Origin: a virus
Virus record (IMG/VR): IMGVR_UViG_3300023175_001558
Location: 1 to 24,329 of that record
DNA: 24,329 nt
Strand: one strand, 5' to 3'
Shown here: piece by piece, positions 8 through 11,753 of the stretch
Numbering within the stretch: the first letter of the stretch is position 1
Layout of the letters: every line of letters begins with the position of its first letter
Position numbers and translations under genes: made by a program
Notes under the pieces: generated by a model
The model's input: only the letters and a program-made list of their open reading frames with translations
Told to the model about the DNA's origin: nothing
Database searches by the model: none

Positions 8-1555
8 TTAGCTTGCTGAGTATGGATTAGTGCCAGTAAAAGGAGTTTTAAGATATAAGTTAGCCGCACCTTGCAATGCACGGAAATTATTATAATCAGT
101 TGCTGCGGTGCCAGTTGTGGGATCGTATAGTCTATTAGACTCACTTACTTCTTGTAGCCAGCGTAAACACTGTTCTTGAGTATAGTGCGGTCTTGCTTCT
201 AACAAACACGCTAGTATACCAGCAACTTGTGGAGATGCCATACTAGTTCCGCTAATTTTTGTAATATCCCAACTATTATTATCAGGGTGTGGTGCAGTGC
301 CATTAGCCAATGCTATTGTACTACCTGTTGCAATACTACTCATAATAGGGCCGCCAGGTGCACTGATATCAACACGTGGTCCTTTTTCACTACTATTAAA
401 CAGTGGTTCTTGTCCACTTACGTAAACATAACTAATATTGCCTACACTGATAACACCTGGTTGTGCCATGGGTGTTGAACCACGATGATAATATGTAGTA
501 CCATATACACTGCTAGTCCAATAGTTATTGTAGTCTTGTCCTCCAGGAACATCACATTTATGACTACCATTCCCAGCCGCCGCTACCATGATAATACCAT
601 CATCCAAACAGTCTTGAATATCAGCATCGACACTGGCAATACGAATCGGATGTGTATAAATGCCTTCGCTCTGTTGTCCTTGAATCATACCATATTGTGA
701 CTGCATTAGCGTGTCAGTCCATGGCGTGCCTCTCCAATTACCACCAGTAATATTTTCATAATTAGCAAAATATCCCCAACTCATATTAACAATAGTTGGA
801 CGAATAGGAACACTGTCATTTTGTGGATTAGCAGTCTTTTTACTGTTGTGCCACGCTCTAAGCATGTTAAAACTTGCACTGGCACCAAATGTATTGCCTG
901 GGTCATCTAAGATTTTTAAACTGTATATGTTGGCATTACGAGCCCAACCAAAACGTCTACCTACTGCAATACCTGCAACGTGTGTACCGTGACCATCTAT
1001 ATCTCTGTGATACTGTGCTGGCTGAGTATATGTTCCACTAAGTCCACTAATACTTGGCCAATCAACAGTTTGATATCGTACTGTTGTCCCGTCAGCATCA
1101 CTAATAAATTCTGGGTGATCTGGTTGAATACCACTGTCTTGAATTACTACATCAATGTCTTGACCACTTAGTGTATATGGAAAATTATAAGGAACAGTTC
1201 CACTTACGCCGCCATATGGATCAGCACCACTGGTACAACTTAACAGTCCCCAGTTACCTTGGTCAGGTGCCAGTGTGCTTCCTTTTTCATAAGCTCTTGT
1301 AGTTTCATCTAAACTTGCATTGACGAGATGATAGCCGTTTTCTATTTTACTACCATAACGTACATCTACAATACGTGGGTCGTTTCGCAATTCAGCTGCC
1401 TGCTCACGTGTCATAACAAAGTCAAAGTTACGTTTACTGCCAGGCTTTTCGTCATGTAATTCATATCCAGCATCCATCATCTGGTTTACAAATTCTTCTG
1501 TATCTACACCTTTATGTAGAGTAACTACTGCTCTGTTCTGATCTTCAGTACTCAT
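8..1555 (-). CDS. Subtilisin-like (S8) serine protease, 515 aa
   Basis: This is a serine peptidase of the subtilase family with a complete catalytic set. Asp140 lies in VVIQDSG, His189 in DGHGTHVAG, the oxyanion Asn329 in AAAGNG, and the nucleophile Ser438 in SGTSMASPQVAG. Residues 1-75 resemble an inhibitor I9-like propeptide (alpha/beta, with an FVMTREQAAELRNDPRIVDV segment). There is no signal peptide or membrane segment, so it probably works inside the cell or on the virion. The ATG is preceded by AAGGA at good spacing, and the gene starts 9 bases after the stop of the 719-aa fibre gene, so the two are probably co-transcribed. It is clearly paralogous to the N-terminal half of the 1021-aa protease (shared DVVIQD, PTIVN-SWGY and NWGL segments) but lacks that protein's C-terminal beta domains. 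The substrate is unknown; processing or modification of tail fibres, or attack on host surface protein, are guesses. Confidence 0.93.
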   Translation of the reverse strand: MSTEDQNRAVVTLHKGVDTEEFVNQMMDAGYELHDEKPGSKRNFDFVMTREQAAELRNDPRIVDVRYGSKIENGYHLVNASLDETTRAYEKGSTLAPDQGNWGLLSCTSGADPYGGVSGTVPYNFPYTLSGQDIDVVIQDSGIQPDHPEFISDADGTTVRYQTVDWPSISGLSGTYTQPAQYHRDIDGHGTHVAGIAVGRRFGWARNANIYSLKILDDPGNTFGASASFNMLRAWHNSKKTANPQNDSVPIRPTIVNMSWGYFANYENITGGNWRGTPWTDTLMQSQYGMIQGQQSEGIYTHPIRIASVDADIQDCLDDGIIMVAAAGNGSHKCDVPGGQDYNNYWTSSVYGTTYYHRGSTPMAQPGVISVGNISYVYVSGQEPLFNSSEKGPRVDISAPGGPIMSSIATGSTIALANGTAPHPDNNSWDITKISGTSMASPQVAGILACLLEARPHYTQEQCLRWLQEVSESNRLYDPTTGTAATDYNNFRALQGAANLYLKTPFTGTNPYSAS

Positions 1556-1564
1556 AAATTATCC

Positions 1565-3724
1565 TTAAACAATATTAATCAAACCGTTCATTGCACTGTG
1601 ATATTGACATACATAGTACAGTGTATTTGGTGCATCCATTTGTACTGTCCATTCAATAACACCGCTTTCTGTACCACCATTTGTCAAATTGTCAGTATAC
1701 AGGTTTGAGGCATTGTATGCACCACTCGATGTCTGAATATGGAAAGGATGTCCTGGGGTATTGATATTAAATTTATATGTAAATCCACGATATAGGTATA
1801 ATGTTGGATTGTCGTCACCATCAGTACCAGCACCAGTATATTGGTAACGTCCTGCGTCAGGTGCTGTTACACTAAATGTTGGAACACCAGTAGCAATGTT
1901 TGACACCTGTGTGTCTACATAATTCTTAGTAGCTGCATCCTGTAAATCAACTGGATCTAATACATTTGTAATTTTACTGCTATTTGCATTAATGTCGCCA
2001 ACAGCAATTAAACTGATATCACTTGCACTTTCCAGTGTAGCAAATCCAAGTCCTGTACTGTCTAAACTTGTTACTGTAAGTGTATTGTTGATTGTAACAG
2101 CATCGTTAGTGACAGCACCACGTGCAGTTACGTCACTAAGTGTGTCTGTGCTACTTCCAATATCACTAGTAAGTGCTACTGTACCGCTGGCATCTGGGAA
2201 TGTAATAGTTCTGTCAGCTGTGGGGTCAGTGACATTAATAGTAGTTTCAAATGCATCGTCTGTAGCACCTTCAAACTGTATACTGTTAAGTCCTGTAATG
2301 TCTGCATCTAAACTTAGTGAAATAAAGTTAGTTGCGACTTCAGCATTAATTTGTCCAGTAGTTCCTAGGAATGTAAGTGTCTCAGTTGATGTATCAAATG
2401 TATGGGTACCAATGTTACCAGCAATACCAAATGTACCGCCACCACCAGCATCAGTATCGTTAATCCAACTACTGCCGTTATACTTTAGTACTTGTCCAGT
2501 TGTTGCTGAACTAATGCTAACATCTCCCAAGTCATTAATACTAGCATTGCTTATATTAGAACCTGTAATTGTTGCTGTTGGTGTTTCTCCATATACTATA
2601 ATTGTAAATGGTGAAAAGTTACTTGGCGTACGGCCTCCACTATTATCATAAAACTCTGCCGTAAATCCAGTTGTTGATTTATTACTAATACCAACATGGT
2701 AATCATCAAATGTTTCACTGTCAGTTACAACTGTATATTGTGTATTTGCTTGCGCATTATCAAAAGTAAAATCTAATGATGAGTTTCCACTATTCCAGTT
2801 ACTCCAGCTAATACCAGTAGCGGAACCGTTAGACGTAGTTTCTACATTTGCAAATGCAAATGGTGCAATAACTGTGTCAGTACCACCAGCACTTGTCTGG
2901 TCCGCAACCCAAGCATAGTCACTTCCGTTCCAGCTTAAAATTTGGTTTGCAGTTGCGCTACTTGTATTAAGATGTGTATCTACGTCACTGTCAGTATAAC
3001 TTGTGCCGCTAGTAACTGTTGTGAAACTAAAATTACCTGAACCGTCTGTTGTTAATACTTGACCGTTAGTACCATCACTGATACTTAGATCTGTTAATGC
3101 ACTGGGGATTGTTGGTTTATTTGTAAGACTATTGTAGTCACCATCAAATGCATTACTAGTTAATTGATATCCACTTAAATCTGGGGGAGTGTATGTAAAG
3201 TGTCCACTGGTACTGTTGTATGCTAAATTTGCAGTACCTGCTGCGGCAACAGTAACACTCAAGTCTGTAAGCTCAATACCGCCACCGCCAGCGCCGCCAT
3301 CAGCTGCTGGTACCCAGTTAGTACCATCGTATTTTAGTATTTGTCCTGTAGTAGCAGGTGTTGATAAATCAACATCATTTAAATCACCAATATTAACTGG
3401 TACACTGCTATCATCAGCAAGTTTAATCCAACTACCAGCATGTGCATAGTATGCAGCGCCTTCATTATGAACGTGTGCAAACATGCCGTGATAACTACTT
3501 GCTGCTGGCAAGTCAACTAAATCTTGGTATAAAAATGTAATACGGTTGCTACCAGTTACATCCATTTTACCAGTTGCACTGTTTACTAGTGTAAGTGGGG
3601 TGTCGCCACCCAGTGCATTGTATAACTCTAAAAAGTTATCATTATTTTTATCTAATGCATCTCTTAACGGATCACCAGTGCCATCATTTGCCACTGCACC
3701 AATATTTACTAACTGTCTAGACAT
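1565..3724 (-). CDS. Tail-fibre-like structural protein with C-terminal cupredoxin-like domain, 719 aa
   Basis: The composition (Gly/Ser/Thr/Asn/Asp), repeated beta segments and phage-fibre phrases identify a fibre or appendage protein; examples are LTDLSISDGTNGQVLTTDG (211-229), a DPTADRTITFPDASGT stretch in the middle, and DAATKNYVDTQV near the C-terminal part. Residues 1-125 match the N-terminus of the 317-aa protein downstream of uvsE, including a His-rich YHGMFAHVH...GAAYYAHAG block at 78-97. Residues 208-280 are also shared with that paralog. The last ~105 residues form a cupredoxin-like domain: His659 (GHPFH), Cys706, His709 and Met712 (YYVCQYHSAMNG) match the type-1 copper ligand order. 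The RBS is AGGGGA upstream of the ATG, with a CATAAATA late box 22 bases before the start. It is followed by the 515-aa protease. The exact virion location is not known. Confidence 0.88.
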   Translation of the reverse strand: MSRQLVNIGAVANDGTGDPLRDALDKNNDNFLELYNALGGDTPLTLVNSATGKMDVTGSNRITFLYQDLVDLPAASSYHGMFAHVHNEGAAYYAHAGSWIKLADDSSVPVNIGDLNDVDLSTPATTGQILKYDGTNWVPAADGGAGGGGIELTDLSVTVAAAGTANLAYNSTSGHFTYTPPDLSGYQLTSNAFDGDYNSLTNKPTIPSALTDLSISDGTNGQVLTTDGSGNFSFTTVTSGTSYTDSDVDTHLNTSSATANQILSWNGSDYAWVADQTSAGGTDTVIAPFAFANVETTSNGSATGISWSNWNSGNSSLDFTFDNAQANTQYTVVTDSETFDDYHVGISNKSTTGFTAEFYDNSGGRTPSNFSPFTIIVYGETPTATITGSNISNASINDLGDVSISSATTGQVLKYNGSSWINDTDAGGGGTFGIAGNIGTHTFDTSTETLTFLGTTGQINAEVATNFISLSLDADITGLNSIQFEGATDDAFETTINVTDPTADRTITFPDASGTVALTSDIGSSTDTLSDVTARGAVTNDAVTINNTLTVTSLDSTGLGFATLESASDISLIAVGDINANSSKITNVLDPVDLQDAATKNYVDTQVSNIATGVPTFSVTAPDAGRYQYTGAGTDGDDNPTLYLYRGFTYKFNINTPGHPFHIQTSSGAYNASNLYTDNLTNGGTESGVIEWTVQMDAPNTLYYVCQYHSAMNGLINIV

Positions 3725-3746
3725 AGAAAAATCCCCTGTATGTCAT

Positions 3747-3754
3747 TATTTATG
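3747..3754 (-). promoter_or_regulatory. T4-type late promoter box (CATAAATA) for the 719-aa fibre gene
   Basis: CATAAATA on the minus strand, 22 bases upstream of the ATG. It shares its surroundings (CCCCTGTAT, TTATTTATGCTA read on the plus strand) with the region upstream of the paralogous 317-aa fibre gene, so gene and promoter appear to have been duplicated together. Confidence 0.65.
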
Positions 3755-3759
3755 CTAGA

Positions 3760-6700
3760 TTAAGGATTGTCAACTATGGTAATAACTGCCCGGCCAATGT
3801 TAGTTGCAAGATATGATTCTTTATAAAATAAAATTTGTATTGTTTCAGGACCTTCAGTATTAGAGTCAGTTGCTATACCGCCCCCTATTACATATTCATC
3901 ATTACTATTTCTACCAATAGTTCCTGAATTTTGTAATCCAAAAAAGTCTGAATTTAAAACAGCATTACCTGATAAAGTATAATAAATTTGACTGGGGAGA
4001 TTGTAAACATAACTAGGTGTTAAAGTAACTGTAAAACTTGAGCCTTCATAAAAAGGATTTTCATATAACTCAGGATTAGGATCAACTGGTTGAGTTCCAG
4101 TTACAGCAACATTATATTCAACTGGAGGTCTGTCGTAAATTTTAACCTGTATTTCACCTTTAAGGTTTGCACTCGTAGTCACTGGACTATCATATAATCT
4201 CAAGTAAAAGAATTCAGGTGCTTCAGTCTGTGCATCGTTGAATATATACATTGATGCTCCTGCATATCCTATAGTTCCTACAGTAAATTCTTGCTGGCCT
4301 AATGGCTGGTAGTCAGATCCTTCATAAGCAGACCCAGAAGTTTGTGTAATCCAAACTGGTGTGCCAGGAGGTGCAAGGGTAATATCTTCTGGAGTAGCTT
4401 TTATAACTACTGCTGTTTGTTCATAAACAGAGCCTGGGCCGCCTTCATCAAAAGCGTTTTCAGGCTCAATTTCAAAAGTCCAATTAATACTCGGTCTATC
4501 TTCTAATACATGTACTGTCCTGTAAAGCTGAGTTACATTGCCGTCGCCATCTCTTTCTTCAAATATTATTTCAAATGTCTTAGGACTTTCAGAAACATAG
4601 TCAGCCACAAACCCAAAATTTATTTCAATTTCTTCACCAGCTGATACGCTGTATGGTATTCCGCTTTGGTAATTTGCAAAGGCGTAGAAGTCAGAGTTGT
4701 TTATGTTTCCGTCCATCCTAACATAAAATGTATATGTGTCATTGGTAGGTATATACCCGTTTCCTCGCACTGCATAACTTAATGATTCACCTTCATAAAT
4801 TACGTCTCCGTCTCTAGATGGATTGTTTAAATCTGGTGTTATTATGATTCCTGGTGTTCTATTTGATGTGTCTTCTATTGTTATTAATGCAGTATCACCT
4901 GAATCAATCCTAAACAATAAACGTTCAGTACCTTCAGTGAGTTCATCATTTGTTACTGTTATAGTTAGTGTAGATTCCCAGATATTATCAGAATTTAATG
5001 AAAACGTCATATTACCAGTTAGTGGAACATCTACATCGTCTTGTGTTATTCCATCACCTAAAATTTCATATGAAACAGTACGTTTTGATTCTGGTAAATC
5101 TTGCCTTGCCTGTACTGTTATTGTTGTTGTTGGGCTTTCAACTTCGTCCACAGTGAAACTAGAAACTACAAAACCGTATCCGTATTCTTCTTTTGTGTCA
5201 TTTAGTTTTGTGGTGTATTTTTCACTAAATGGATTAATTAAAAACTTTTTAGCCATTCCTTGGAATGATGAATCGTCGAAATAGTTTGGATCAGATGTAT
5301 TATCCCTATCTTCTGTTTCAACCTGATATTTATTTACACTAGCAAACTCTAATAACCATTTTTTACACTGTGCACTAGTAGCTGTAGGATTTATTTGCAA
5401 GTATAGTGCTAATATACCAGTAACTTGCGGTGCTGCCATACTTGTGCCAGTAATACATAAATTATTGTACGCATTATTACCAAAATAACTAGCCGAAAAA
5501 GTTCTGTTTGGGTCAAGTGCAAGCATATCAGCATTGTTTGTTGCCGCCCAAATCCTAGTCCCTGGTGCTGCAATATCATTTGCTGGGCCACGTACAGAAC
5601 TTCTTGTCAATACTTCTCCGAGACTAGCGCCAAAAACATTTATGCCAGTATTTGAGTAATTAGCAACAGAAATACCATCAGCTGACCATGGTGAACCAGG
5701 TCTATTATAATAAATTGGATCACCAGCTGGTATATCAATCCAGTCGCCACTAGAAGTGTAATGATTGTCATAATCAATACCTCCAGGCAGGTCATGTTTA
5801 TAACCTGAATTTCCACCTGCATTGACAAATACAACACCAGCATCTATCATATCTTGACATGCTTCGTTAACTGCTATATTTGATGCTTCATGTCTAACAG
5901 AAGGACCAAATCCAAGAGATCTATAATTTGATCCATTTAGAGAAGTTGTACCTGTACTTGTTCCTCTGAATACAACGTCAGTTAAAGAATTGCTGTCTAT
6001 ATAACCTGGAACATACCAACCGTACCCCCAACTTGCGTTAACGATAGTTGGTCGTTTATATCCAGTATTAGGATCAATAGGTTTTTGTTCATGCCACAAT
6101 CTAATTAAATTAAAGCAGTCGATTGTACCAATCCCGCCTGCTGAATCAAAACGTATACTATATATACGTGCATTTTTAGCATAACCGTGTCTTTTTCCTG
6201 CTGCAATACTTGCAACATGTGTTCCGTGATACCCTACGTCACCATAATGAGATGATGACATTGCACCACTACTACCAGTTTCTGCATACCAATCGATTTC
6301 CATAAGTCTAGTATTACCGTCAGCATCTTCCCATTCAGGGTGTCCGGTCATAACACCATTATCTTGAATTACAACGTCTACACCTGTGCCATCAAGTGCA
6401 TAAGGATATTTGACACCAGTGCTAATATCATACACTCTCAACGGATCAAATATGTCAGTTTCGCCTTCTATATAGGCTAGTGGGTCTTTTCTAGAAGTAC
6501 TAAACAGCCCCCAGTTTGTAAAATATCCATCTAATACACTTGTGCCATTCCTCCAAAATATATCACGCTGTTCAGCAAATATATCATATGTGTTAAATGT
6601 AAAGACTTCGACTGCCTTAACATCTTTATGACTTCTTAATAATGATGCTTCTTCTTGAGTTAGGAAAAATTCTGTTGATTTTAAACTTAATTCCATTGGG

Positions 6701-6825
6701 TTAGATATTGACACTGCTCTAGTAGGTATTAAGTTATCAGTGTCTGTGGTGTTATCAGTTCTAATAGTGTTTAAAAAATCTTCTACAACATCGACATTAG
6801 CTAGTGTTACTATGTATCTATTCAT
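3760..6825 (-). CDS. Subtilisin-like (S8) protease with C-terminal Calx-beta-like domains, 1021 aa
   Basis: The N-terminal half is a complete subtilase: Asp155 (VVIQDNG), His200 (GYHGTHVAS), oxyanion Asn339 (NAGGNSG) and Ser462 (TGTSMAAPQVTG). Residues 1-75 are a propeptide-like region resembling that of the 515-aa protease (FFLTQEEASLLRSHKDVKAV). From about residue 550 to the end there are about four all-beta modules of 100-125 residues. Each closes with an acidic strand of the type VxIxDxP (ITIEDTS ~657, VHVLEDRPS ~785, VKIYDRPP ~905, VITIVDNP at the C-terminus) and contains EGxE or EGPE-like segments, as in Calx-beta repeats. No signal peptide is seen. The ATG has an AGGAAA ribosome site and begins 13 bases after the 317-aa fibre gene. 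The beta modules suggest anchoring to a virion or to a surface; this is inference. Confidence 0.9.
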   Translation of the reverse strand: MNRYIVTLANVDVVEDFLNTIRTDNTTDTDNLIPTRAVSISNPMELSLKSTEFFLTQEEASLLRSHKDVKAVEVFTFNTYDIFAEQRDIFWRNGTSVLDGYFTNWGLFSTSRKDPLAYIEGETDIFDPLRVYDISTGVKYPYALDGTGVDVVIQDNGVMTGHPEWEDADGNTRLMEIDWYAETGSSGAMSSSHYGDVGYHGTHVASIAAGKRHGYAKNARIYSIRFDSAGGIGTIDCFNLIRLWHEQKPIDPNTGYKRPTIVNASWGYGWYVPGYIDSNSLTDVVFRGTSTGTTSLNGSNYRSLGFGPSVRHEASNIAVNEACQDMIDAGVVFVNAGGNSGYKHDLPGGIDYDNHYTSSGDWIDIPAGDPIYYNRPGSPWSADGISVANYSNTGINVFGASLGEVLTRSSVRGPANDIAAPGTRIWAATNNADMLALDPNRTFSASYFGNNAYNNLCITGTSMAAPQVTGILALYLQINPTATSAQCKKWLLEFASVNKYQVETEDRDNTSDPNYFDDSSFQGMAKKFLINPFSEKYTTKLNDTKEEYGYGFVVSSFTVDEVESPTTTITVQARQDLPESKRTVSYEILGDGITQDDVDVPLTGNMTFSLNSDNIWESTLTITVTNDELTEGTERLLFRIDSGDTALITIEDTSNRTPGIIITPDLNNPSRDGDVIYEGESLSYAVRGNGYIPTNDTYTFYVRMDGNINNSDFYAFANYQSGIPYSVSAGEEIEINFGFVADYVSESPKTFEIIFEERDGDGNVTQLYRTVHVLEDRPSINWTFEIEPENAFDEGGPGSVYEQTAVVIKATPEDITLAPPGTPVWITQTSGSAYEGSDYQPLGQQEFTVGTIGYAGASMYIFNDAQTEAPEFFYLRLYDSPVTTSANLKGEIQVKIYDRPPVEYNVAVTGTQPVDPNPELYENPFYEGSSFTVTLTPSYVYNLPSQIYYTLSGNAVLNSDFFGLQNSGTIGRNSNDEYVIGGGIATDSNTEGPETIQILFYKESYLATNIGRAVITIVDNP

Positions 6826-6838
6826 TATGTTTCCTATC

Positions 6839-7792
6839 TTAATGCAAGTCTACCCAAACACCATTTGCATATCCCTGGAATTTGTTTGTATCAGTATTAT
6901 AAACTGTGTCTCCATTTAGTGCAGTTAAAGCATCACGTTGTGCAGTTGTAAAGTTAGCAACTCTAAAAGGAGTAGTATTTCCTACCGCAACACGATTTGT
7001 TGCATTTAAGTTAATATCAGTGGTACTATTAATATCTGTTAAACCAGTACCAGTAATATATAAACTATCAACTGTTAATGTATTAAACGTAACATCATCT
7101 GTAGTATCAAGTGATTGGTTATATGATGTCCCGCCACTGCCTGTTTGATCAGTTACCCATGCATAATCACTACCATCCCAACTTAGAAGTTGATTTGTTC
7201 CTGCTGTACTTGTATTAAGGTGTGTATCAACATCACTGTTAGTATAGCTAGTACCACTTGTTACAGTTGTAAATGAAAAGTTACCAGCACCGTCAGTTGT
7301 TAAAACTTGTCCGTTTGTACCATCACTAATACCTAGATCAGTTAATGCACTGGGGCCTGTATCATTGGCAGGTTCCCAAGCACTGTTTGCACTGCTCCAT
7401 TTTAACACCTGTCCATTTGTCGGGGCTGTTGTTGTAGTATCTACATCAACTAAATCACCAATATTAATATTACTTAGATCACTTTTATTTGCTAATTCAA
7501 CCCAATTACCTGCATGAGCAAAATAGGCAGCACCTTGTGTGTGTACATGCGCAAACATGCCGTGGTAACTGCTAGCTGCTGGTAAATCTAGTGTATCATT
7601 GAATAAAAATGTAATCTTGTTTGATCCAGTAAGATCAAGTTCACCGTTATTGATAATAGTAGTTAATGTGTCACCACCTAACGCAGTATAAACTTCAATA
7701 AAGTTATCATTTAATTTATCTAATGCTGAACGTATTGGTTCACCAGTGCCGTCATTTGCTACTGTGCCAATATTTACGAATTGTCTTGACAT
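6839..7792 (-). CDS. Tail-fibre-like structural protein, 317 aa, paralog of the 719-aa fibre
   Basis: The N-terminal ~125 residues align with the 719-aa protein (MSRQFVNIGTVANDGTGEP, and the His-rich YHGMFAHVH...AYFAHAG block at 76-94). Residues 148-220 repeat the shared LTDLGISDGTNGQVLTTDG...SDVDTHLNTS...LSWDGSDYAWV module. The C-terminus (GDTVYNTDTNKFQGYANGVW) is a small domain common at the ends of phage fibre proteins and replaces the cupredoxin end of the paralog. RBS GGGGA lies upstream of the ATG and a late box sits 23 bases before it. An inverted repeat at 7802-7833 can mask this RBS on read-through transcripts. It is followed after 13 bases by the 1021-aa protease. Likely an appendage component; assembly position unknown. 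Confidence 0.88.
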   Translation of the reverse strand: MSRQFVNIGTVANDGTGEPIRSALDKLNDNFIEVYTALGGDTLTTIINNGELDLTGSNKITFLFNDTLDLPAASSYHGMFAHVHTQGAAYFAHAGNWVELANKSDLSNINIGDLVDVDTTTTAPTNGQVLKWSSANSAWEPANDTGPSALTDLGISDGTNGQVLTTDGAGNFSFTTVTSGTSYTNSDVDTHLNTSTAGTNQLLSWDGSDYAWVTDQTGSGGTSYNQSLDTTDDVTFNTLTVDSLYITGTGLTDINSTTDINLNATNRVAVGNTTPFRVANFTTAQRDALTALNGDTVYNTDTNKFQGYANGVWVDLH

Positions 7793-7801
7793 AAAATAAT
7801 C

Positions 7802-7833
7802 CCCTGTATTACACTTATTTATGCTATACAGGG
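7802..7833 (-). promoter_or_regulatory. Inverted repeat enclosing a late promoter; predicted RBS-masking hairpin
   Basis: Perfect 8-base arms, CCCTGTAT at 7802-7809 and ATACAGGG at 7826-7833, are separated by 16 bases that contain the CATAAATA box. On a minus-strand transcript coming through from uvsE, the 3' arm carries the AGGGGA ribosome site of the 317-aa fibre gene and would be base-paired. A transcript starting at the late box (start expected near 7810) lacks the 5' arm, so the site is free. Genes such as e, soc and 49 of T4 are regulated this way. Confidence 0.65.
7816..7823 (-). promoter_or_regulatory. T4-type late promoter box (CATAAATA) for the 317-aa fibre gene
   Basis: CATAAATA on the minus strand, 23 bases upstream of the ATG, lying in the loop of the inverted repeat at 7802-7833. 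Confidence 0.7.
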
Positions 7834-7838
7834 AGGTT

Positions 7839-8903
7839 TTATGCTGCTTTTAGTATACCAGTAAATGGATCTTTTTGCATATAATACTGTTGATAAAGTT
7901 GTGTACTGGCTAAGTTCTTCATTTTAGCCTCTACCATAATATCAAATTTATCCCAAAAACTCAAGGCCCACTCATTGCTTGCAGTATTCCAGCAATAGTC
8001 TGAATGTGCTCTTAGTTTTTGTTTTTTGTATGAGGATTCAAGTAGTGTGTCCATGTCTGGTCGTACACTTGATGAAGCATCCTTGATATAGTCCTCACGG
8101 CTAAGGCTGTAATGCATAGTAGGACGCACACCACGCCAACTATCGATAATAATACTAATGCGCTCGTCGTCATGTCGAATATATTCTCCTGTCTTGACCC
8201 AGTGATGATGTATGTCCATCACCAAGGGTACATCTTTACTTAGCTCTAGGCTTGCTTCGAGTCCCCAGGAGTTTTCGTCGTTTTCGATAGTGATAGTGTT
8301 TCGTGCTTCTGTAGACAATCTTGGAAGGATGTCTTGGATACCGGCTGGACCTTTTTTACCTGAGATGTGGACGTTACACTTGAAGTCTTGCCAGTTCTGA
8401 CCGTAGCCCATCCACCTGATGATATCCGCATGATATTCAAACTCCTCTAATGAACGTTCGACCACATCCGGATTATCGGAAGCAAGAACGGTAAACTGAC
8501 CAGGGTGCATAGACAAGCGTACATCAAGCTCACGTGCAATATCGCCAACTTTCGAGTACGCTCGCTCGAGCCGTGTTCGGAGATCTGCTTGCCTATAGAA
8601 ATAAGCCCAATCACCATGAGTATAAGCAGGCAACAAATTACTGCCAATACGTACCATGCGTAATGATTCTGGTAAAGATCCAACATATCTAATTAGCCTT
8701 TCTAAATTTGCCACGTTGTCAAAAGCAATTTCATAAAGTCTTTGCTCTGCTACTTCACGTGACTGTCTGTTAAGCCATGTAATAGTTGTAGATCTTTCAG
8801 TATACTGTGACTGAATTTCTTTAAGTATTTTAGGCTTTTGTGTTTGGTCCGGGTGCATGTATTTACATGCGAACCCGATACGTTTTATGCTACTATTAAA
8901 CAT
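7839..8903 (-). CDS. uvsE: UV-damage endonuclease (UVDE/UvsE family), 354 aa
   Basis: UVDE nicks DNA 5' to UV photoproducts and starts alternative excision repair. It is a TIM-barrel metal enzyme related to endonuclease IV. The family signature residues are present in order: the N-terminal IGFACKYMHP, SMHPGQF (His133, Gln136), NVHISGKKG (His179), ITIENDE (Glu207), MDIHHHW (Asp230, His232), MHYS (His264), AHSDY (His300) and a C-terminal DIMVEAKMKNLA (Lys327). The chosen start is the ATG at 8903, which overlaps the stop region of the 74-aa gene (ATG-TTTAA), because the family N-terminus (RIGFACKY) begins right after it. A longer reading upstream would run through the 74-aa gene in another frame and adds nothing family-like. 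Translation is probably coupled to the 74-aa gene, since no strong ribosome site is seen. It probably protects phage DNA in sunlit water. Confidence 0.95.
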   Translation of the reverse strand: MFNSSIKRIGFACKYMHPDQTQKPKILKEIQSQYTERSTTITWLNRQSREVAEQRLYEIAFDNVANLERLIRYVGSLPESLRMVRIGSNLLPAYTHGDWAYFYRQADLRTRLERAYSKVGDIARELDVRLSMHPGQFTVLASDNPDVVERSLEEFEYHADIIRWMGYGQNWQDFKCNVHISGKKGPAGIQDILPRLSTEARNTITIENDENSWGLEASLELSKDVPLVMDIHHHWVKTGEYIRHDDERISIIIDSWRGVRPTMHYSLSREDYIKDASSSVRPDMDTLLESSYKKQKLRAHSDYCWNTASNEWALSFWDKFDIMVEAKMKNLASTQLYQQYYMQKDPFTGILKAA

Positions 8904-9120
8904 ATTGTTGTAATAACTCTGTTGTTTGTTTTGCAGTAAAGGTATGCTTAAACTTGCTAGGGAAGTTTGCACGGATTGCTTGCTGTTGTTTACGTGTATA
9001 AGGTACAGCAATAAACGCATCTGAGCCGTATACTTGTTGTGCAAGTTGGTACTGCGATGCACTAATTTTTTGTGCAAAGTTAAAAATAGTTAAGCCGGGT
9101 TCTGTTACTAGATAGCTCAT
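8896..9120 (-). CDS. Small conserved-type protein of unknown function, 74 aa
   Basis: A soluble protein I do not recognise, rich in Gln and Ala (AQKISASQYQLAQQVYGSD, TRKQQQAIRANFPSKF), with predicted helices and no membrane segment. It is supported as a gene by a strong ribosome site (AAGGAGA) 7 bases before the ATG, a near-consensus promoter just upstream (9147-9175), and end-to-start overlap with uvsE. Its place as first gene of an early-type unit with uvsE suggests early expression; a role in repair is only a guess from position. Confidence 0.8.
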   Translation of the reverse strand: MSYLVTEPGLTIFNFAQKISASQYQLAQQVYGSDAFIAVPYTRKQQQAIRANFPSKFKHTFTAKQTTELLQQYV

Positions 9121-9146: not shown

Positions 9147-9175
9147 AGTATAGAGTAAAGCGTCTTGGTTGTCAA
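9147..9175 (-). promoter_or_regulatory. Sigma70-like promoter for the 74-aa gene and uvsE
   Basis: TTGACA (9170-9175) and TATACT (9147-9152) on the minus strand with a 17-base spacer. The spacer shares an AAG-CG-TTTACT core with the promoter at 11654-11682. The -10 ends about 26 bases before the ATG at 9120. Confidence 0.85.
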
Positions 9176-9178
9176 CAC

Positions 9179-9745
9179 TTAATTGAATAAATGTTTATAC
9201 TTTGTATAAAAATCCAGTGCTTCTGTTTTTGTCATAGTTGGATATTTTTTGTATCTGTTATGCAAACTATCCCAATCTCTCATAGCTGGGTGTGTTTTTT
9301 CACCAATGCTAAGACGAGTTGCATAACGCCAGCCATCCAAGTTTTTGCTTTCTACCCAACGGTTATGCATAAACTTTGCGGCTGTTTCTTTGATATTTTC
9401 ATATACATCATCTTCCATTTCAATTTCAAATGGGTGTTGCATATCTTTGTCTGGGTCATATAAGTTACTGGCTTCTATTTCAAAGTCATCACCGTATCTC
9501 ATTTCCCAAGCACTTACAATAAATTCTGCTTCAGTTTTGTTTAAATGACGGGTTAAGTGTACTACGTACACATATGGAAACCCGTCATCAGCAATATCTT
9601 CATCTTCAACTTCTACTTCAAGATCCTCATCTTCATCATAAATTGGCACACCAGGCGGTGTGAATTTTAATACAGTATCAAACCATAGATCCATTTCTTG
9701 ATCAGTTAAGTCTCTTGCTGTTAAAAGTCGAATATACTGTTGCAT
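9179..9745 (-). CDS. Acidic protein with RyR-like domain, 188 aa
   Basis: Residues 36-54 are extremely acidic (YDEDEDLEVEVEDEDIADD). The C-terminal part, about 116-168, fits the ryanodine-receptor repeat (RyR) pattern also found in bacteria and phages: an upstream HxxW (His127, Trp130), Lys134, DGWRY (137-141), EKTHPAM (149-155) and a following SLHNRY. RyR domains are thought to bind ligands or partners; their role in phages is unknown. Its ATG overlaps the stop codon of the EF-hand protein by one base (TAATG), so the two are translationally coupled. No membrane segment is present. The RyR assignment rests on motif reading alone. Confidence 0.75.
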   Translation of the reverse strand: MQQYIRLLTARDLTDQEMDLWFDTVLKFTPPGVPIYDEDEDLEVEVEDEDIADDGFPYVYVVHLTRHLNKTEAEFIVSAWEMRYGDDFEIEASNLYDPDKDMQHPFEIEMEDDVYENIKETAAKFMHNRWVESKNLDGWRYATRLSIGEKTHPAMRDWDSLHNRYKKYPTMTKTEALDFYTKYKHLFN

Positions 9746-10194
9746 TATTTTCTCTTACGTACTATTTTAATTTCTTCTTCTGCGGCAGGCTCTTTTTTAG
9801 GAGCAGGCTTTGCAGCTGGTTTTGCTGCTGGTTTTGGCGCTGGGCTACTTACTGGCGCTGCCGCTGGAGCCTTTTTTCCAGATGAGTACGCCTGTGTTCC
9901 ATAAAATGCTGCAACAATAGCTGCAACTGACACAAAGTATGTAGGTGCCATATTTCCTAATAGTGTGCCTGCTGTATCTAAATTAAAAAATACAGTTAGC
10001 ACGATTGCAAATGGATATAATAACATTCCAAATAGTGCGAACCACGCCATATTGCGCTGTGCGTCTTGTCTTTTATCTTCGTTTTCTAGCATAATCATGC
10101 GTTCTGAACGTGCGATTTCTTCATCACTTACGATACCGTCTCCGTCAACATCGTACTGTGCATATAAAGAGTCCGATTGTAATTGTTTAGCCAT
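9745..10194 (-). CDS. EF-hand membrane protein with Pro/Ala/Lys-rich tail, 149 aa
   Basis: Residues 15-26 (DVDGDGIVSDEE) form a canonical 12-residue EF-hand calcium loop with Asp at 1, 3 and 5, Gly at 6 and Glu at 12. Two hydrophobic segments follow, about 49-71 and 82-102, so it is probably an inner-membrane hairpin. The tail from ~107 is rich in Pro, Ala and Lys (KPAAKPAAKPAPKK) and ends very basic (RKRK). The start chosen is the ATG at 10194 with AGAAGGAG upstream, rather than a GTG three codons earlier that overlaps the ribosome site. It has its own late box at 10218-10225 and is coupled to the RyR-like gene. Two membrane segments plus a charged tail would suit a holin or other envelope protein, but nothing here proves it. 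Confidence 0.87.
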   Translation of the reverse strand: MAKQLQSDSLYAQYDVDGDGIVSDEEIARSERMIMLENEDKRQDAQRNMAWFALFGMLLYPFAIVLTVFFNLDTAGTLLGNMAPTYFVSVAAIVAAFYGTQAYSSGKKAPAAAPVSSPAPKPAAKPAAKPAPKKEPAAEEEIKIVRKRK

Positions 10195-10217
10195 AATAAA
10201 CACTCCTTCTCACAGAG

Positions 10218-10225
10218 TATTTATC
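10218..10225 (-). promoter_or_regulatory. T4-type late promoter box (GATAAATA) for the EF-hand gene
   Basis: GATAAATA on the minus strand, 23 bases upstream of the ATG at 10194. This is the same spacing as the fibre-gene boxes. Confidence 0.65.
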
Positions 10226-11653: not shown

Positions 11654-11682
11654 AATATAAAGTAAAACGCCTTACTTGTCAA
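11654..11682 (-). promoter_or_regulatory. Sigma70-like promoter for the 83-aa and 84-aa genes
   Basis: TTGACA (11677-11682) and TATATT (11654-11659) on the minus strand, spacer 17. Its spacer shares AAG-CG-TTTACT with the promoter of the 74-aa/uvsE unit. It lies just after the terminator of the preceding unit, so it restarts transcription. Confidence 0.82.
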
Positions 11683-11703: not shown

Positions 11704-11730
11704 AAAAAAATAGGCGCCCTAGGCGCCTAT
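11704..11730 (-). terminator. Rho-independent terminator after the 78-aa gene
   Basis: Perfect inverted repeat ATAGGCGCC-CTA-GGCGCCTAT (11710-11730), a 9-base GC-rich stem with a three-base loop. It is followed on the minus strand by a run of seven T. It ends the unit containing the 78-aa structural gene and insulates it from the early-type promoter at 11654-11682. Confidence 0.9.
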
Positions 11731-11753
11731 TAAAACATTAAATGTTATTGCTA

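Follow-up and report, generated by a model that had tools for sequence, protein, structure and literature searches.

A putative T4-gene-e-type translational lock between uvsE and a tail-fibre gene in an uncultured, probably large phage

The locus described here places a tail-fibre gene directly behind uvsE, a repair gene with an early host-type promoter, and raises the question of whether an RNA element in the gap between them hides the fibre ribosome-binding site (RBS) on read-through RNA and leaves it free on RNA made late in infection. The window, that is, the whole stretch of DNA analysed (24,329 nucleotides), is a fragment, a 24-kb virus record from an uncultured, probably large phage. 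For its Clp-type ATPase and a virion protein, the closest counterparts are those of jumbo phages such as Phosso, PA5oct, GAP32 and Atu_ph07, at less than 60% identity.

Architecture of the uvsE–fibre junction

The junction comprises the following features, all on the minus strand.

9147..9175 (-): early host-type promoter, TTGACA-17-TATACT, of a 74-aa ORF and uvsE (sequence)
7839..8903 (-): uvsE (UV-damage endonuclease), likely start ATG 8903 (phrog_8420; relatives; sequence)
7790..7843 (-): whole two-stem RNA element (predicted fold)
7841-7839 (-): uvsE stop codon TAA (sequence)
7826..7833 (-): 5' arm CCCTGTAT, directly 3' of uvsE and upstream of the putative late start point (sequence)
7816..7823 (-): T4-type late box CATAAATA, in the inner hairpin between the arms (sequence)
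7802..7809 (-): 3' arm ATACAGGG, overlapping the Shine-Dalgarno (SD) site (sequence)
7806-7801 (-): SD, CAGGGG (sequence)
7792-7790 (-): fibre start codon ATG (sequence)
6839..7792 (-): gene that the element would control, a 317-aa tail-fibre/baseplate protein with a T4 gp9/10-like N-terminus (phrog_677, phrog_9729)

The 317-aa protein scores just under the cut-off of Pfam T4_gp9_10_N. Its gene belongs to a tandem duplication of a fibre and subtilisin-like protease module (317+1021 aa and 719+515 aa; window 8-7792, minus strand), which in the sister-lineage contig L014 is present as a single fibre and protease copy (560+543 aa).

In the predicted minus-strand fold, the uvsE–fibre gap from 7843 to 7790 (CAUAAAACCUCCCUGUAUAGCAUAAAUAAGUGUAAUACAGGGGAUUAUUUUAUG) forms 20 base pairs, three of which are G.U, arranged in two stems. 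The outer stem is a perfect helix of 7 bp that joins 7843-7837 with 7796-7790 and contains the start codon in paired form. The SD stem consists of 9 bp, the ninth being a U.G pair (7834/7801), and encloses an inner stem of 4 bp. A sequence-only reading had described perfect 8-base arms around the late box, and these are found at 7833-7826 and 7809-7802; the hairpin that it drew is real but too small, lacking the U.G pair 7834/7801 and the 4-bp inner and 7-bp outer stems. The fold of the whole element has a free energy of -18.7 kcal/mol (z -5.1), and none of 200 shuffled sequences was equally stable. When the upstream arm was swapped for random 30-mers drawn from the phage and two relatives, 2 of 5000 folds were equally stable, and none of 400 random 45-mers placed upstream closed the fibre ribosome site equally well. 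No Rfam family matched above its gathering score in the 24-kb window.

Predicted opening of the ribosome site on read-through and late RNA

The spacing known from T4, applied to CATAAATA, puts the late start at A 7810, and RNA beginning there is predicted to be open. Opening SD and AUG together requires 15.8 kcal/mol on the read-through transcript and 1.5 kcal/mol on the late one (z 5.5), and on the read-through RNA the probabilities of being unpaired are 0.04 for the SD and 0.01 for the AUG. The folds bear out the earlier proposal of an RBS that is closed on read-through RNA but accessible when the RNA starts at 7810. The same computation gives near-equal values for T4 gene e (15.6 on read-through versus 1.0 on late RNA; z 5.6) and lower ones for T4 soc (9.2 versus 0.4 kcal/mol).

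Locks of this type on T4 e, soc, 49 and I-TevI have been reviewed, with a 100-fold effect on lysozyme (PMC3014915), as have those of homing endonucleases, in a review that also notes that the genes locked in T4 are late ones whose transcripts include early and middle genes too (PMC2988022). The geometry of the fibre leader agrees with that of T4 gene e, as the sequence-only reading had held: the SD lies in the 3' arm, the late box lies between the arms and the late RNA is without the 5' arm (PMC3014915). In contrast to gene e, the gene that the leader would control follows uvsE and encodes a tail fibre, the phage is a distant one, and the leader has separate stems for SD and AUG, a GGGG-type SD and a U-rich spacer. 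T4 soc and gene 49 are likewise late genes whose RBS is paired on long RNA (PMC3014915), but the gene 49 box lies in the 5' arm rather than in the loop. In I-TevI, too, the RBS is sequestered on early and middle transcripts and freed by a late promoter, and similar arrangements have been described for segB and Aeh1 mobE (PMC2988022); the genes controlled there are mobile ones, whereas here it is a virion gene, and a GIY-YIG gene sits at the corresponding junction of the sister lineage.

Two further leaders of the window were compared in the same way.

3725..3754 (-): leader of the 719-aa paralogue, with late box and SD as at the 317-aa gene and no significant hairpin (fold)
10192..10225 (-): second possible lock, GATAAATACTC..GGAGTGTTTAT, before a 149-aa gene (fold)

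For the paralogue, the opening cost is 7.4 kcal/mol on read-through versus 2.9 kcal/mol on late RNA (z 0.7), which is no significant lock. The claim that this leader has no comparable hairpin thus stands, but the class of its upstream neighbour, to which the absence had been attributed, is not the explanation. At window 3740-3780 (minus strand), a TTGACA located 17 bases before AATAAT overlaps the late box of this leader, a possible hybrid early/late promoter. For the 149-aa gene, the cost is 11.5 on read-through versus 2.6 on late RNA. Its arms can also be written ATAAATACTC..GGAGTGTTTAT, the 5' arm containing the late box, an arrangement shared with T4 gene 49, and because of this placement the random-arm null is uninformative for both genes. 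The 149-aa protein carries an EF-hand-like DGDG motif and hydrophobic stretches, and no orthologue of its gene was found among the collection loci searched.

Promoters and proposed mechanism

The promoter at 9175-9147 matches the sigma70 type at 11 of 12 positions and drives uvsE, in line with the sequence-only reading. Sites of the TTGACA-17-TATACT type number three in the window against 0.05 expected, and a similar promoter stands upstream of uvsE in nearly all relatives examined. The listed TTG start of uvsE at 9077 falls inside the 74-aa ORF, and relatives align from query residue 59 or later. Between the early promoter/uvsE and the fibre gene, the terminator scan (loop limit 3-8) listed no minus-strand terminator-like site. 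The late boxes are strand-biased: all 10 ATAAATA boxes of the window lie on the coding strand, their total being the chance number for both strands, and the strand ratios in contigs G001, G007 and G008 are 13:0, 12:0 and 14:0.

Several other features of these regions were recorded. The early promoters (window 9147-9175 and 11654-11682; G005, G007, G013) share TTGACAACCAAGACGTCTTACTGTATANT beyond their hexamers, and a palindrome-like AAGACGTCTT in the early-promoter spacer could be an operator. A strong terminator-like hairpin of 10 pairs followed by TTTTT (window 11709-11731, minus strand) lies just upstream of the early promoter 11682-11654. Window 9179-9745 (minus strand) encodes a protein of 188 aa in which a RyR domain (PF02026) scores above cut-off.

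The best explanation of the element, which we hold with reasonable rather than strong confidence, is a translational lock of the T4 gene e type. It draws on the sequence, the folds predicted for both RNAs, the early promoter that relatives also have, the strand bias of the late boxes and the covariation of this design at gene A1 of the same phage (below); read-through, the start point, the late sigma factor and the fall in translation are inferred. RNA from the early promoter 9175-9147 would run through uvsE and fold at 7843-7790, where one stem would hide the SD and the second the start codon, so that no fibre protein would be made early. Late in infection, RNA polymerase carrying a gp55-type sigma factor would start at about 7810, inside the hairpin; the resulting RNA, devoid of both 5' strands, would stay open and be translated. 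Genes for gp55-type sigma factors are present in Phosso, PA5oct and GAP32, which makes T4-type late transcription plausible for the phage of the window; no gp55 gene was found on the fragments of its lineage. Judging from positions, a ribosome that terminates on the uvsE stop codon (7841-7839) would sit over the outer stem and some of the 5' arm, and the lock could then open. Counting further against the lock are the lack of covariation in the 317 arms, the U-rich tails, which hint at termination, and the fact that hairpin leaders show no tie to early upstream promoters.

Hairpin leaders at other genes and in other phages

In a survey of late leaders of the phage and its relatives, 8 of 94 have an upstream–SD duplex of -14 kcal/mol or lower, against 0.42 expected (p 0.0002). 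The same survey found 7 such leaders against 1.1 expected in Phosso (p 0.0002), a weak excess in PA5oct and no excess of SD-pairing hairpins in GAP32; candidate leaders lie at Phosso 57871 (minus strand) and PA5oct 134990. The arm sequences differ among hairpin leaders within one genome. A scan of the whole collection for CCCTG-box-CAGGGG returned 11 stretches, six of them from the window's own phage, four before a gp13-like gene and one other; the chance level of such collection-wide patterns was judged by one control with the reversed 5' word GTCCC, which returned none. The gp13-like adaptor gene (phrog_211) has the same hairpin design in L431 and L433-L435. In L432 (7666-7699, minus strand), a strong hairpin with AAATCCCCTGAGACTC-like arms surrounds GCATAAATAC, with no start codon found close downstream.

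The clearest other case of the design precedes gene A1 (phrog_7595, function not assigned), whose leaders carry CCCTT-box-RAGGG hairpins in the window's phage (at G001 24960) and in at least seven more contigs. Covarying hairpins with the late box between the arms were located at G001 ~24930-24990 (L195, minus strand) and in L389, L401, L402, L403, L405, L407 and L198. The flanking pairs change jointly (A-U/C-G/G-C and G-C/A-U/U-A), and 5 of 11 pairs are changed on both sides among six distinct rows, counts that were obtained with arms placed by hand on the common CCCTT/RAGGG core, a procedure that favours the core and not the variable flanking pairs. MAFFT, applied to the full A1 leaders, misplaced the arms owing to their unequal loop lengths. 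None of 500 shuffles reached the observed number of paired cells or the observed covariation score, both of which lie far above slid controls; since the shuffles ignore relatedness, these counts are not probabilities.

The sequence-only reading had linked the hairpin to an early upstream neighbour. This link is not supported: across six contigs, 5 of 11 hairpin leaders versus 33 of 67 plain leaders lie behind an early promoter (Fisher p 1.0), and the strongest hairpins of lock type precede A1, a gene for which the closest promoter further upstream is, in some phages, of the late type. On the same counts, the idea that hairpins mark early-to-late junctions finds no support.

The fibre leader in relatives

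Near-identical contigs (99.8-100% DNA identity over up to 2.6 kb) carry the element unchanged, an identical 63-nt copy being present at 24 loci, some of which overlap, and because these near relatives are identical the 317 arms offer no covariation. In the sister lineage (L014, G007, G008), uvsE is followed by a GIY-YIG endonuclease gene, then by a small ORF and a single fibre-protease pair; the homing-endonuclease-like GIY-YIG gene between uvsE and the fibre gene lies at 3719-4294 of L014. The orthologous fibre leader shares AGCATAAATAA and ACAGGGGATT with that of the window. It holds its start region in a 12-bp stem and its SD in 5 bp, both of other sequence than in the window, and opening costs 10.7 on read-through versus 1.7 kcal/mol on late RNA (p 0.015). 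Complementary arms in homologues had been set as a test of the lock: the arms of the 317-aa leader are not kept, but a weaker predicted lock of other sequence is found in the sister lineage. In fibre relatives at a greater distance (A2, L316-L385), the late box is frequent, but no strong hairpin holds the SD in its stem.

Alternative explanations

The U-rich sequence that follows the stem in hairpin leaders makes partial transcription termination a serious rival, if on balance an unlikely one. In that case the hairpin with its U-rich spacer would mainly stop upstream RNA, in the manner of an intrinsic terminator, and the internal late promoter would restart fibre transcription, an insulator that would serve behind early and late operons alike. 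The T content of spacers in hairpin leaders (0.50 versus 0.24, p 0.002), the A1 tails of G001, G004 and G007, whose scores of 3.1-3.3 come near that of the likely terminator 11731-11709 (3.6), and the missing tie of hairpin leaders to early neighbours all speak for it. The scores of the 317 tail AUUAUUUU (1.9) and of the G003 A1 tail (0.7), however, are lower, the outer stem runs on through the U-run to the AUG, and the leaders of 719 and L164, which have no hairpin, likewise have U-rich spacers; the terminator scan did not list the fibre-leader site, though its loop limit of 3-8 is strict.

Translational coupling, in which ribosomes finishing uvsE would open the stem and supply the RBS of the fibre gene, would make the hairpin a link between fibre and uvsE translation with no silencing. 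It is possible since the ends reached by uvsE ribosomes overlap the 5' strands, the uvsE stop codon lying inside the outer 5' strand and 5 bases before the SD stem. With 46 bases between uvsE stop and fibre start, no evident need to tie a virion fibre to a repair enzyme, and other genes between the two in the sister lineage, we regard it as very improbable. Chance complementarity, or a DNA palindrome (an operator or recombination site) devoid of RNA function, would suit an element that is identical in all near-identical contigs and whose arms are not common to the sister lineage, but is hard to credit against the null sets (2/5000 and 0/400), the class-wide excess and covariation, the differing arms within one genome and the G.U pairs in the stem.

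Implications

Both reviews describe the lock in T4 and related phages, where the genes concerned are those of lysozyme, soc, 49 and homing endonucleases (PMC3014915, PMC2988022), and a partial literature search found no report of RBS locks in the PA5oct/Phosso/GAP32 group. Its putative presence in distant uncultured phages, where it precedes virion genes and further late genes and covaries at one of them, suggests a general tool of late regulation in the T4 superfamily. That the lock does not track early neighbours raises the question of whether it serves timing or the insulation of each gene from upstream RNA. A tentative and rather doubtful extension is that a compact late-gene insulator, combining terminator, translational lock, late promoter and ribosome site in about 50 bases, is reused across this uncultured phage lineage; if so, each locked gene would depend for its expression on its own promoter alone, regardless of what precedes it. 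Since Phosso and PA5oct, which have candidate hairpin leaders, are in culture, the choice between timing and insulation is testable.
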